From: Candidatus Binatia bacterium
GTDB taxonomy: Bacteria; Desulfobacterota; Binatia; UBA12015
Length of the DNA stretch: 64,000 bases
Assembly: GCA_029243485.1 (NCBI GenBank)
Contig: JAQWRY010000047.1
Location: 62,001 to 126,000, forward strand
Direction of reading: 5' to 3'
This document shows positions 9,889 through 13,048 of the stretch, in pieces. The translations under genes were made by a program, and so were the position numbers. Every line of letters starts with the position of its first letter. Positions within the stretch are counted from its first letter, which is position 1. Below the pieces are notes generated by a model, which worked only from the letters and a program-made list of their open reading frames with translations, did not search any database and was not told the origin of the DNA.

Positions 9889-11079
9889 ATGAAAAAGACG
9901 TTTGATGACATCATGGCAGACGCCAAGCGCGTCGTGCCCGAAGTACGGGTCGACGAGGTCCGTGGACGTCTGGCGGGCAACGGTAGAGCCGTCGTCATCC
10001 TCGACGTTCGTGAGAAGGAAGAGTACCGCGAGGGCCATCTGCCAGGCGCGATCTCGATCCCCCGCGGATTCCTCGAGATGAAGATGGAAACCGAGGTTCC
10101 CGAGCGCGACGCCGAGATCATCGCGTACTGCCAGGGCGGCACGCGATCGCTCATGGCGGGCGTCGTGATGAAAGAGATGGGCTACACCAACGTCGTGTCG
10201 ATGACCGGCGGTTTCGGCTCCTGGAAGCAGGCCGGCAACGACTGGAGCGCCGACAGGCAATTCACGCCCGACCAGTTGCAGCGGTACAGCCGCCACTTCA
10301 TTCTCCCCGAGGTTGGCGAGGCGGGGCAGTCGAAGCTCCTCGACGCCAAGGTTCTGTTGATCGGAGCCGGGGGCCTGGGCTCCCCGACCGCGTACTACCT
10401 CGCCGCAGCGGGTGTCGGCACGCTCGGCATCGTCGATGACGACGTCGTCGATCGCTCCAACCTCCAGCGACAGATCCTGCATACCGACGACCGGGTTGGC
10501 ATGCCGAAGATCGAATCCGCCGAACTCACGCTGAAGGGCCTGAACCCGGACCTCAACGTGATCGGTTACCGCGAGCGCGTCGACTCCTCGAACGTGAAGC
10601 GCCTGTTCGAAGGCTACGACATCATCGTCGACGGCTGCGACAACTTTCCGACACGCTACCTCGTGAATGACGCCTGTGTGTTCATGAACAAGCCGAACGT
10701 GCACGGCAGCATCTTCCAGTTCGAAGGACAGACGACTGTCTTCGATCCGGCGAGCGGGCCTTGCTACCGCTGCTTGTTCCCGGAGCCGCCGCCTCCCGGC
10801 GCCGCGCCGTCGTGTCAGGAAGCCGGTGTCCTCGGTGTTCTGCCCGGCTTGATCGGTTCGGTGCAGGCGGTCGAGACGCTGAAGCTGATCCTCGGCATCG
10901 GGAACTCCCTGGTCGGTCGCCTCCTGCACTTCGATACGCTGTCGATGGACATCAAGACGCTGAAGCTGCGCAAGGATCCGGAGTGCCCGGTCTGCGGCGA
11001 TCAGCCGACGGTGACCGAGTTGATCGACTACGAGGAGTTCTGCGGTCTGCGCGGCGACGACGCCGGCGCCACCACCTGA
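9889..11079 (+). CDS. rhodanese-ThiF/MoeB fusion, E1-like sulfur-carrier adenylyltransferase
   Basis: A 396-residue two-domain protein. The N-terminal rhodanese domain (about 15-118) has LDVREKEEYREGHLPGA and active-site Cys81 in AYCQGGTRS. The C-terminal E1-like domain (about 130-375) begins YSRHFILPEVGEAGQ and has the ATP motif GAGGLGSP, the Arg finger in SNLQRQILH, a catalytic-Cys region SCQEAGVLGVLPG and two zinc CxxC pairs (CYRC, CPVC). Such proteins adenylate the C-terminal glycine of a MoaD/ThiS-type carrier and, with the rhodanese, convert it to a thiocarboxylate for molybdopterin, thiazole, cysteine or thiouridine synthesis. The order is the reverse of MoeZ/MOCS3 (E1 first). GGAGGT at 9878 sets the start. 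The MoaD/ThiS-like partner gene lies at 11776. Confidence 0.9.
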   Translation: MKKTFDDIMADAKRVVPEVRVDEVRGRLAGNGRAVVILDVREKEEYREGHLPGAISIPRGFLEMKMETEVPERDAEIIAYCQGGTRSLMAGVVMKEMGYTNVVSMTGGFGSWKQAGNDWSADRQFTPDQLQRYSRHFILPEVGEAGQSKLLDAKVLLIGAGGLGSPTAYYLAAAGVGTLGIVDDDVVDRSNLQRQILHTDDRVGMPKIESAELTLKGLNPDLNVIGYRERVDSSNVKRLFEGYDIIVDGCDNFPTRYLVNDACVFMNKPNVHGSIFQFEGQTTVFDPASGPCYRCLFPEPPPPGAAPSCQEAGVLGVLPGLIGSVQAVETLKLILGIGNSLVGRLLHFDTLSMDIKTLKLRKDPECPVCGDQPTVTELIDYEEFCGLRGDDAGATT

Positions 11080-11083
11080 GAGC

Positions 11084-11779
11084 ATGCAACCGTTCCCCGG
11101 CCGCGGACGGCTCTTCCTGCTGCGGCACGGCGAGACCGAGTGGAATCGGGCCCGCCGGGTGATGGGTCGGCGGCCCGTGCCGCTGTGTGACGAAGGCAGG
11201 GCCCAACTCGAGCTGCTGACGCCGCACCTCCCGGGGCTGGGCATCAGCTGCATCTGGACCAGCCCGATGGTGCGCGCACGGCAGACCGCCGAGATCGCGT
11301 CCGCGGCAGTCGGGGGCGTCCCCATCCGTGAAGACGACGGTCTGGCCGAGGTGGATTACGCCGACTGGGAAGGCTGCGGCTTCGAGGAACTCCTCGCTGA
11401 CCCCGGATACCACGAGTTCCACAAAGACCCACTCCGCTCCCGCGTTCCAGGCGGCGGCGAGACGCTGTTCGAAGTTCGGGAGCGGGTCTTCGATGCCGCC
11501 GCCCGCGCACTGGCCGAGACGACCGACGGCCACCCGCTGTTGGTTTCGCACGGCGACCCGCTGCGCCTCGTACTGGCCGCCTGCATGGCAACCCCGCCCA
11601 CGGAGTTTCGCCGCCTACGCGTCGACAACGGCGCCCTGTCGGCCATCGATCTGACCGGAACCTGGTCCGAGGCAAAGTTTGTGAACATGCGGCCGGATCT
11701 CGGCGTGATGCTCGATGCCGAGATGGACGGTGCCCGCGCGCTGCGCGAGGGCGAAGCAGAACCTACGGAGTCGAAATGA
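11084..11779 (+). CDS. histidine phosphatase family protein
   Basis: A 231-residue member of the phosphoglycerate-mutase-like superfamily. LLRHGETEWNR at the N-terminus holds the phosphorylated histidine, TSPMVRARQTAE gives the second arginine, and VSHGDPLR the second catalytic histidine. The GGETLFEVRERV segment is as in cobalamin/adenosylcobalamin phosphatase-like and other small-molecule phosphatases. Substrate unknown. It starts four bases after the E1-like gene and overlaps the MoaD/ThiS-like gene by four bases (ATGA), so it sits inside the sulfur-carrier operon. Confidence 0.88.
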   Translation: MQPFPGRGRLFLLRHGETEWNRARRVMGRRPVPLCDEGRAQLELLTPHLPGLGISCIWTSPMVRARQTAEIASAAVGGVPIREDDGLAEVDYADWEGCGFEELLADPGYHEFHKDPLRSRVPGGGETLFEVRERVFDAAARALAETTDGHPLLVSHGDPLRLVLAACMATPPTEFRRLRVDNGALSAIDLTGTWSEAKFVNMRPDLGVMLDAEMDGARALREGEAEPTESK

Positions 11780-12012
11780 ACGTCACGATCAAACTGCACA
11801 CCACGCTCAAGAAGTTCGCCCCGCCCGAGACCAAGGGCACGATCCCGATGGAGTTCGACCCCGGCGCGACCGCCAAGACGGCTGCCGCCCACTTCGAGAT
11901 CCCAGACGACTTCGTCGGCGCGGTCTTCATCGACGGCCAGCGCGCCGACATCGACACGCCACTCGCCGAAGGGATGGAAGTGAACTTCCTGGCTCCGATC
12001 GGCGGCGGCTAA
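11776..12012 (+). CDS. MoaD/ThiS-like sulfur carrier protein
   Basis: A 78-residue beta-grasp protein ending in FLAPIGGG. The terminal Gly-Gly is the part that the E1 enzyme adenylates and converts to a thiocarboxylate. The MNVTIKLHTTLKKFAPP start is typical of the MoaD branch. It overlaps the phosphatase gene by four bases and is very probably the substrate of the rhodanese-E1 fusion upstream. Whether the sulfur goes to molybdopterin, cysteine (CysO-like), thiamine or another product cannot be seen: no moaE, thiG or cysM gene is in the window. The ending GGG rather than GG may matter for processing. Confidence 0.85.
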   Translation: MNVTIKLHTTLKKFAPPETKGTIPMEFDPGATAKTAAAHFEIPDDFVGAVFIDGQRADIDTPLAEGMEVNFLAPIGGG

Positions 12013-12039
12013 TCCGTCGGCCGCTGGACCGATCCCCAT

Positions 12040-12116
12040 AAAAAAACCCCGAGGGCAAGCTCTCGGACAGTTCAAAGCGTCCGGCCTCGTCCGGTGTTGA
12101 CGAGGAGCCCTCGGGG
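12040..12116 (-). terminator. strong Rho-independent terminator, minus strand
   Basis: Read on the minus strand, a 10-bp perfect stem ACCCCGAGGGC-type (plus 12107-12116 with 12047-12056) is followed by seven T (plus 12040-12046, A run). The 50-base loop folds further, including a 6-bp stem at plus 12085-12090/12100-12105. On the plus strand the repeat has no T tract, so it ends transcripts coming from the efp side. It lies about 365 bases beyond the efp stop. Confidence 0.75.
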
Positions 12117-12481
12117 TCGGTGGTGACTGGTATACTCCCAGTCGACCACGAAATTCGCGGAGCGGCCTAGGAGGCCACCACCTCACAGAACACCGAATTG
12201 GGACTACTCACTGTCTGACCACCCCCTTTCTCGGCGCCGACGCAATCGACTCGCATTCGTTCGATCCGCCTTCCGTGCGGGTACCACCCGCTTCCGGTCC
12301 GAAACCGCCGATTATCCCGGCACCGGCCACGGCTCACCGACCAAGAGAGGCCATCCCGCCCCCAGCCGACTCAACGGGTGCTGTTTCACCCGAACCGCTC
12401 AAAAGAATCCTAGGCCGATCTGCGACGGTAGTCTAGACGATCTGACGCAACGTTTGTGGAACAGTGCGTCAGTGGCGGGTC
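12117..12481 (-). ncRNA. candidate structured RNA or long efp 3' leader, unassigned
   Basis: There is no open reading frame of note on either strand. Read on the minus strand, several stems are visible: 8 bp at plus 12442-12449/12465-12472, 6 bp at 12375-12380/12387-12392, 6 bp with a 3-base loop at 12277-12282/12286-12291, 5 bp at the GGCCT..AGGCC near 12164-12176, and a two-part stem at 12120-12130/12138-12149. All end at the terminator at 12040-12116. I looked for the diagnostic motifs of tmRNA, RNase P RNA, SRP RNA and common riboswitches and saw none. It could be an independent small RNA, a long 3' UTR of efp, or only a relic. Confidence 0.35.
12442..12472 (-). other. inverted repeat just after the efp stop
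   Basis: CTGACGCA (12442-12449) and TGCGTCAG (12465-12472) make an 8-bp perfect stem with a 15-base loop, ten bases downstream of the efp stop codon. There is no T tract on the minus strand. It could be an end hairpin of the efp mRNA or the first stem of the RNA candidate. Confidence 0.45.
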
Positions 12482-13048
12482 TCAGCTCTTGGCGCGTGAA
12501 ACGTAGTCGCCCGACTCGGTGTCGACGCGAATGACCTCGTCCACATTGATGAATTCGGGGACCTGCACGACCAGCCCGGTCTCCATCGTGGCGGGCTTCA
12601 GCGTGTTGGTGACCGTGGCGCTCTTCAGCCCCGGCGCGGTCTCCACGACCTTCAGTTCGACGTTCTTCGGGAGCGAGACACCAATGGGCGTGGTCTCGTG
12701 GAACTCCACTTCGACCTTCATGTTCGGCAGGAGGAACTTCTCACGGCCGGTGAGGTCTTCGGAGGTGAGCTCGATCTGTTCGTAGTTCTCGGTGTTCATG
12801 AAGTGGTGCTGCTCGCCGTCGGAGTACAGGTACTCCATCTCGTTCTGCTCGAGCGTGATGCGCTCGACCTTGTCCTCCGAACGGAAGCGATGCTCGCTCG
12901 AGTTGCCCGAGCGCATGTTGCGAACCTTGGTCTGCACCATCCCGCGCCAGTTCCCCGGCGTGACATGAACGACGTTCAAAACGCGATGCAGGTCGTCTTT
13001 GTGCATGATGACCATGCCGGCGCGGAGTTGCGTGGCAGAGATGTGCAT
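12482..13048 (-). CDS. efp: translation elongation factor P
   Basis: A 188-residue EF-P of normal length with three beta-barrel domains. EF-P enters the ribosomal E site and helps peptide-bond formation at polyproline stretches. Domain I runs 1-65 (QLRAGMVIMHKDDLHRVL, HVTPGNWRGMVQTKVRNM) and domains II/III run to the C-terminal SGDYVSRAKS. The ATG at 13048 has GAGGAG about eight bases upstream. The tip of domain I reads PGNWRG: Asn33 stands where E. coli has the beta-lysylated Lys34 and others have the rhamnosylated Arg. It is third in a minus-strand operon with a cupin and a membrane protein, 13 bases after the cupin gene. Confidence 0.94.
   Translation of the reverse strand: MHISATQLRAGMVIMHKDDLHRVLNVVHVTPGNWRGMVQTKVRNMRSGNSSEHRFRSEDKVERITLEQNEMEYLYSDGEQHHFMNTENYEQIELTSEDLTGREKFLLPNMKVEVEFHETTPIGVSLPKNVELKVVETAPGLKSATVTNTLKPATMETGLVVQVPEFINVDEVIRVDTESGDYVSRAKS

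Follow-up and report, generated by a model that had tools for sequence, protein, structure and literature searches.

A putative ribosome-loading RNA gene beside efp in a Binatia bacterium, apparently related to the actinobacterial sRNA Ms_IGR-5

What occupies the long interval between the end of efp and the terminator behind it on the minus strand of this Binatia contig? In the window (the whole 64,000-nt stretch of DNA that was analysed), efp ends at 12482, and about 365 nt separate it from a strong minus-strand terminator (12117-12040, with its T-run at 12046-12040). The initial annotation had drawn attention to this gap, describing 12013-12481 as a structured minus-strand RNA without a reading frame, either new or an unusually long efp 3' UTR. 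The strand does fold more stably than its shuffled counterparts, with a minimum free energy of -174.1 kcal/mol against a shuffle mean of -154.6 (z = -3.74; one of the 100 shuffles was at least as stable). A gathering-level Rfam scan of the whole window (4227 families) was empty and ARAGORN found no tRNA or tmRNA, in agreement with the earlier failure to recognize motifs of known RNAs. All sequence evidence points to minus-strand 12435-12040 as a gene in its own right, present once and about 360 nt long, which carries its own promoter, folds into a covarying structure, and ends in an intrinsic terminator (Table 1); about 50 nt directly behind efp (12481-12436) and about 27 nt past the terminator, both included in the span first annotated, lie outside this unit.

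The promoter-like pair and the terminator end would together place the transcription start near 12400 and give a transcript of about 360 nt. In most scored loci of the window's own family, a TxGACx or TTTACx element lies 203-212 nt before the GGTG of the first Shine-Dalgarno (SD) site, while outside the family a -35-like element mostly lies 165-190 nt before it. Two architectures can be told apart by this offset: members with a folded 5' domain, the window's type, have their promoter approximately 165-212 nt before the first site (SD1), and members without that domain (Zixibacteria, Actinomycetota, and several Binatia families) approximately 49 nt before it, this -49 promoter being read by eye in several Zixibacteria in which the automatic scan chose other sites. 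A DNA search recovered the region in 12 of 14 genomes of the window's family (class Binatia), with one copy in each of the 12 except for a weak second match in G004 (E 0.008). The family alignment alternates near-identical blocks with variable stretches; the conserved blocks are the promoter, the 5' hairpin, the helix directly before AAAGGAGGTGATCC, the stretch CTGTGAGGTGGTGGCCTCCTAGGCC, the CCAGGCACCACCG element, and the terminator.

Table 1. Elements assigned to the RNA gene and the evidence for each; coordinates are those of the window
Feature	Position	Strand	Evidence
Promoter -35 element, TAGACT	12430..12435	-	Position conserved among relatives
Promoter -10 element, TAGGAT, 17-nt spacer	12407..12412	-	Position conserved among relatives
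5' hairpin CGGGTG-AAACAG-CACCCG (leader helix 1, ACACAG-type loop)	12375..12392	-	4/4 consensus pairs changed on both sides
Helix 2, 5' strand CGGCG, closes leader domain	12306..12310	-	94.5% of cells paired; 2 pairs changed on both sides
Leader hairpin GCGGGT-GGT-ACCCGC	12277..12291	-	Aligned motif GCGGG-NCTGG-NCCCGC in relatives
Helix 2, 3' strand CGCCG, adjoins Shine-Dalgarno site	12232..12236	-	Same alignment test as 5' strand
SD1, AAAGGGGGTGGTC (relatives AAAGGAGGTGATCC), complementary to canonical 16S 3' end	12217..12229	-	Sequence complementarity
Micro-ORF GTG...TAG, 14 codons, MSSPNSVFCEVVAS*	12167..12211	-	Homologues open in frame, 120/120 distinct sequences
SD2, GAGGTG inside ORF, nine nt before stop	12179..12184	-	Invariant in 90/90 covariance-model loci
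3' strand CTGGGAG-(bulge)-CCAGTCACCACC, pairs with ORF end including stop	12119..12141	-	Swapped-partner test, z = -7.6
Branched intrinsic terminator, CCCCGAGGG...CCCTCGGGG then TTTTTTT	12040..12117	-	9/12 consensus stem pairs changed on both sides

The fold is conserved among relatives in several phyla. In a 22-sequence alignment, 96% of consensus pairs are kept and 17 of 30 pairs show changes on both sides, amounting to 73 such cells against 27.4 in shuffles (0/500 shuffles as many); sliding the partner strand by one base brought pairing below 50%. These data bear out the structured RNA proposed at the outset. The single-sequence MFE fold of the window leaves part of SD1 paired. The element GGGTGGTACCCGC resembles a T-box motif, but it forms a closed hairpin with a variable loop and there was no T-box match; a T-box was rejected.

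The description of this RNA as new holds in part: it is conserved, covarying, and by its sequence independently expressed, but it also appears to be a distant relative of a family already in Rfam. A permissive Rfam search matched the window's minus strand to RF02471 (Ms_IGR-5, "Actinobacteria sRNA") at 28.5 bits, below the gathering cut-off of 45; the match is full-length (model positions 1-184 of 184), with an E-value of 1.2e-4 in 551 nt and 3.3e-4 in the genome. Sub-threshold matches to anti-hemB and M23 overlapped the terminator or were weak and were treated as chance. Searching the class with the RF02471 model gave matches in 45 of 148 genomes, three of them above the cut-off (49.1, 49.1, and 47.5 bits), and none in 14 control genomes; all 30 loci from the class search carry the same SD site and micro-ORF. 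Among named loci, Mycobacterium scores 140 bits, Streptacidiphilus 72, and Binatia 49 and 47.5, and four loci (L015, L016, L061, L081) pass the cut-off. The full-length match and the Binatia loci above the cut-off indicate that the sub-threshold score reflects genuine homology to Ms_IGR-5, the window RNA being, on comparative grounds, a related variant outside Rfam's membership rule.

This distribution widens when 84,980 named species genomes are scanned for the pattern. Among the matches listed, the arrangement occurs in Binatia, Rokubacteria/Methylomirabilota, Zixibacteria, Planctomycetota, Nitrospirae (Manganitrophaceae), Acidobacteria, one Myxococcales MAG, and Actinomycetota, after removal by hand of chance pattern matches (L056, L057, L154, L158, L177, L179, L184). 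A phylum-wide scan of the window's own phylum outside its class yielded no homologue and a single chance-like match (L047). Model searches matched 48 of 246 genomes in the phylum of the Mycobacterium locus and 41 of 118 in that of the Zixibacteria locus. Phage and plasmid collections returned the second replicon of Nocardia farcinica and one unverified phage-labelled scaffold, neither of them informative; the latter (L186, MT835602.1, titled 'Bacteriophage sp.') has 57 nt at 84% identity to the mycobacterial RNA and may be a contaminant or a mobile copy. Two contigs titled as a Klebsiella pneumoniae MAG (L114, L116) carry Binatia-type sequence and are probably mislabelled records. With relatives in several phyla, the RNA is either old or widely exchanged.

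The initial annotation reported no reading frame, overlooking the ORF because it is only 14 codons long. In the window, the ORF reads GTG AGT AGT CCC AAT TCG GTG TTC TGT GAG GTG GTG GCC TCC TAG and lies behind SD1, for which 13 nt of pairing with the 16S tail and a duplex of -20.9 kcal/mol are predicted, scored against the canonical tail; a search of the window's assembly found no 16S 3' end. In every family member, AAAGGAGGTGATCC is followed by a start codon, a short open frame, and TAG. Among 120 distinct homologues, 117 have an in-frame ATG, GTG, or TTG at the right distance (24 and 22 in the other two frames) and none has an in-frame internal stop (56 and 110 in the other frames); this set was partly picked by a pattern that fixes the stop position, and the test was repeated on model-found loci. 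Between the SD site and the conserved core lie 17 to 32 nt, with all three phases represented; the start is thus displaced in a way that preserves the frame. The start codon varies among ATG, GTG, and TTG and the stop among TAG (105), TAA (9), and TGA (6), again with the frame constant. The marks of a translated micro-ORF (an in-frame start at SD distance, no in-frame stop, a conserved stop) are therefore all present, and the RNA appears to load a ribosome onto a frame of 9 to 14 codons. Actinomycetota model-found loci have a canonical start in 22 of 30 cases and only near-cognate starts in the remaining 8. Near-cognate CTG, ATT, ATC, or ACG codons stand at the right SD distance in L206, L208-L210, L213, L215, and L216 (Actinomycetota) and in L229, L230, L241, and L243 (Zixibacteria); such starts may be likened to infC-like initiation. 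Ribo-seq reads cover Ms_IGR-5 in M. abscessus and M. smegmatis, although the authors themselves caution that such reads may arise artefactually on non-coding RNAs of bacteria (PMC4974804).

The end of this frame is one strand of a conserved helix. From its GGTG through the stop, the ORF pairs with the 3' strand in two segments around a conserved AATCC-type bulge. RNAalifold recovers the helix in alignment A2 (22 sequences from Binatia, Rokubacteria, Planctomycetota, and Myxococcota) and separately in Zixibacteria (A3) and Actinomycetota (A5), with pair counts above those of shuffled and slid controls. It was not recovered for the Binatia families with a GAG/GGG-type ORF end, probably because of a large insertion; there the pairing is visible by eye. 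Within A2, the helix is mostly invariant (2 of 9 pairs doubly changed), so the stronger evidence comes from exchanging partners across lineages. An ORF end pairs more stably with its own 3' region than with a swapped one, the advantage being 2.25 kcal/mol (z = -7.6; 0/5000 permutations), or 2.67 kcal/mol (z = -6.0) when each distinct ORF end is represented by a single sequence, while upstream regions gave a z near zero (-0.5), the far 3' region little (-1.9), and the SD site against the 3' region a weak co-adaptation (-3.0). Examples of cognate ORF-end/3'-strand pairs are GGUGGCUGAG/CUCAGCCACC, GGUGGCUGGG/CCCAGUCACC, GGUGGCUGC/GCAGCCACC, and GGUGGCGGCG/CGGCGCCACC. In some long-leader lineages only, a third GGUGGU-like segment upstream of the 3' strand (window 12150-12119; L009, L021, L118, L126) could form a local hairpin, for example GUGGUCGACUGG...CCAGUCACCAC, which would compete with the ORF helix.

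The most constant part of the frame is a second SD-like word (SD2). GAGGTG followed by a stop exactly three codons later is found in 30/30 Binatia, 30/30 Actinomycetota, and 30/30 Zixibacteria covariance-model matches, the models themselves including GAGGTG and being biased toward conserved copies. In genes flanking the Zixibacteria loci, GAG makes up only 41% of Glu codons and GTG 28% of Val codons. One explanation for the conserved frame is a messenger for a functional micropeptide of 9-14 residues, ending in CEV-x-x-small in many lineages, whose structure tunes translation or stability. The frame is kept in 120/120 sequences, third codon positions in the helix vary more than most (entropy 1.27, 1.51, and 1.06 bits at codons 4-6), and the Cys codon is always TGY in the first set of sequences, all of which would suit such a product; a strictly conserved CEV peptide was indeed supported at first. 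That peptide lost ground, however, with the model-found actinobacterial and zixibacterial loci, in which Cys is replaced: the residue before GAGGTG may be Cys, Arg, Leu, Ser, Thr, Ala, Glu, Tyr, or Pro, the last residues also change (to G, R, C, or A), and the N-terminus is conserved neither in sequence nor in length. The preceding and final residues thus change around an invariant GAGGTG, and the nucleotide word, down to its wobble positions, and its spacing from the stop are better conserved than the peptide. The peptide motif had no match in the open literature searched. On balance, we consider a functional micropeptide rather unlikely.

GAGGTG is complementary to the anti-SD sequence, and once the A site holds the stop, six nt lie between this word and the P-site codon, as they would between an ordinary SD site and its start codon. 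This complementarity and spacing are the basis for the reading that we prefer, to which we give an even chance: a translation-gated regulatory RNA, in which a ribosome loads at SD1, translates through the helix, and is held at the stop by SD2. Following the folded 5' domain, SD1, complementary to the whole 16S 3' tail, would load the ribosome; the 9-to-14-codon ORF (14 in the window) would carry it through the ORF-end/3'-strand helix, opening it; and when the stop enters the A site, GAGGUG, six nt upstream of the P-site codon, would pair and hold the terminating ribosome. While the ribosome is held, the 3' strand, including its ...CACC, would stay free. In the window, the freed 3' strand could refold locally or pair with SD1, which would set a limit of one ribosome. 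In this way the RNA would sense or capture the ribosomes that are available, acting through its fold and not through the peptide. Pausing at internal SD-like sequences is disputed, and we know of no RNA that uses SD pairing at termination as a signal. Comparative sequence supports a separate gene, homology to Ms_IGR-5, a conserved frame, the invariant GAGGUG-N9-stop, and a co-evolving helix, and published data support transcription and ribosome cover of homologues; what we infer beyond these is that the ribosome pauses at the stop, that the RNA changes conformation, and that some downstream target exists. The wider proposition, that a cross-phylum class of RNAs parks a ribosome at the stop by a second SD site and thereby switches its 3' strand, is put forward tentatively and is more doubtful.

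The same anti-SD complementarity would serve a non-coding decoy, in which the two GGAGGUG-like sites bind the 16S tail of free 30S subunits or 70S ribosomes and sequester small subunits, the frame being incidental. The long predicted SD1 duplex and the repetition of GAGGUG fit this, and the near-cognate starts of some lineages suggest that efficient initiation is not constantly required. A pure decoy would nonetheless have no need of a frame, a start position, and an exact stop, all of which are kept despite divergent sequences and lengths, and we regard this explanation as improbable.

Genomic context bears on a cis-acting role, either as the leader of a downstream gene (an attenuator with a leader peptide) or as part of the efp transcript. 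An SD site, a short ORF, alternative pairings, and a terminator are the classical parts of an attenuator, and efp does lie near the RNA gene in the window's genus and some relatives. However, no same-strand gene directly follows the RNA in the window; the next gene, ThiS-like, is convergent (11776-12012, plus strand) and lies 28 nt from the T-run, and convergent neighbours follow the RNA gene in other Binatia families as well. The RNA also has its own predicted promoter, efp was not found in the 1.5-kb flanks of 5 of the 12 family loci, and the neighbouring genes vary by lineage, which together tell against the 3' UTR first suggested; a conserved operon partner was sought across lineages and none was found. 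In Mycobacterium and two other actinobacterial genomes, the RNA follows what we take, by sequence recognition, to be an aminodeoxychorismate-lyase-like gene, and a presumed nitrobindin-like gene, also named by recognition, lies near it in two of those three genomes and in Nocardia. A search of the literature for the Rv0812 neighbourhood found nothing. The S. lividans homologue is transcribed (PMC8079986), and that of S. avermitilis was published as a stand-alone sRNA transcription unit (PMC8780764). A cis-acting role is accordingly very unlikely.

Two features beside the gene were also observed. A hairpin, CTGACGCA...TGCGTCAG, at 12472-12442 on the minus strand directly behind efp has no T-run and may be the real efp 3' end. 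On the plus strand at 9889-12012, genes for a ThiF-rhodanese fusion, a histidine phosphatase, and a small ThiS/Ub-Mut7C-like protein with a terminal GG stand in series, plausibly a cluster for sulfur-carrier activation that runs toward the RNA gene.

A housekeeping RNA of a known type (tmRNA, RNase P, SRP, or 6S/Ms1) that the models had failed to detect would fit in length and abundance of structure but can be set aside almost entirely, given the gathering-level scan, the lack of tRNA-like ends with a tag ORF by ARAGORN or Rfam RF00023, the lack of an Rfam match to the 6S model, and the listing of IGR-5 and Ms1 as separate loci in M. smegmatis (PMC10454040), on which ground identity with Ms1 was rejected.

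Ms_IGR-5 has been known so far only as an actinobacterial sRNA of unknown function. This orphan appears to have relatives in Binatia, Methylomirabilota, Zixibacteria, Planctomycetota, Nitrospirota, Acidobacteriota, and Myxococcota, and all of them share a ribosome-linked layout in which a complete anti-SD complement precedes a tiny frame, with GAGGUG placed exactly nine nt ahead of the stop. The translation-gated reading provides a sharp hypothesis for it, open to testing in common laboratory strains such as M. smegmatis or Streptomyces, and bears on terminating ribosomes as a regulatory signal; ribosome parking, if confirmed, would be new in kind.

Compared with known systems, the window RNA is closest to Ms_IGR-5, with which it shares the order of parts (AAGGAGGUGGUC site, GUGAGGUGGC motif, 3' strand, terminator) and, in actinobacterial members also, the micro-ORF in frame; it differs in its score below the cut-off, its phylum, and the addition of some 170 nt of folded 5' domain. 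Rfam calls the family an sRNA, and the open papers searched make no mention of the ORF, the GAGGUG-N9-stop, the ORF/3' helix, or the wider distribution. Ms1/6S RNA is a stand-alone structured RNA of similar size, as the window RNA is predicted to be, and Ms1 is widespread in Actinobacteria; however, Ms1/6S binds RNA polymerase, whereas the evidence for the window RNA points to the ribosome. Leader-peptide attenuators and arrest peptides (trp, TnaC, SecM) share with it a short ORF whose translation would choose between RNA pairings, but the window RNA has no cis-regulated gene, and its invariant is the RNA word GAGGUG with its distance to the stop and not an amino-acid sequence. Dual-function sRNAs (SgrS/SgrT, RNAIII/hld) are independently transcribed sRNAs that carry an ORF, which the window RNA would resemble in this respect; in the window RNA, by contrast, the ORF end and its stop codon themselves form one strand of the conserved core helix.
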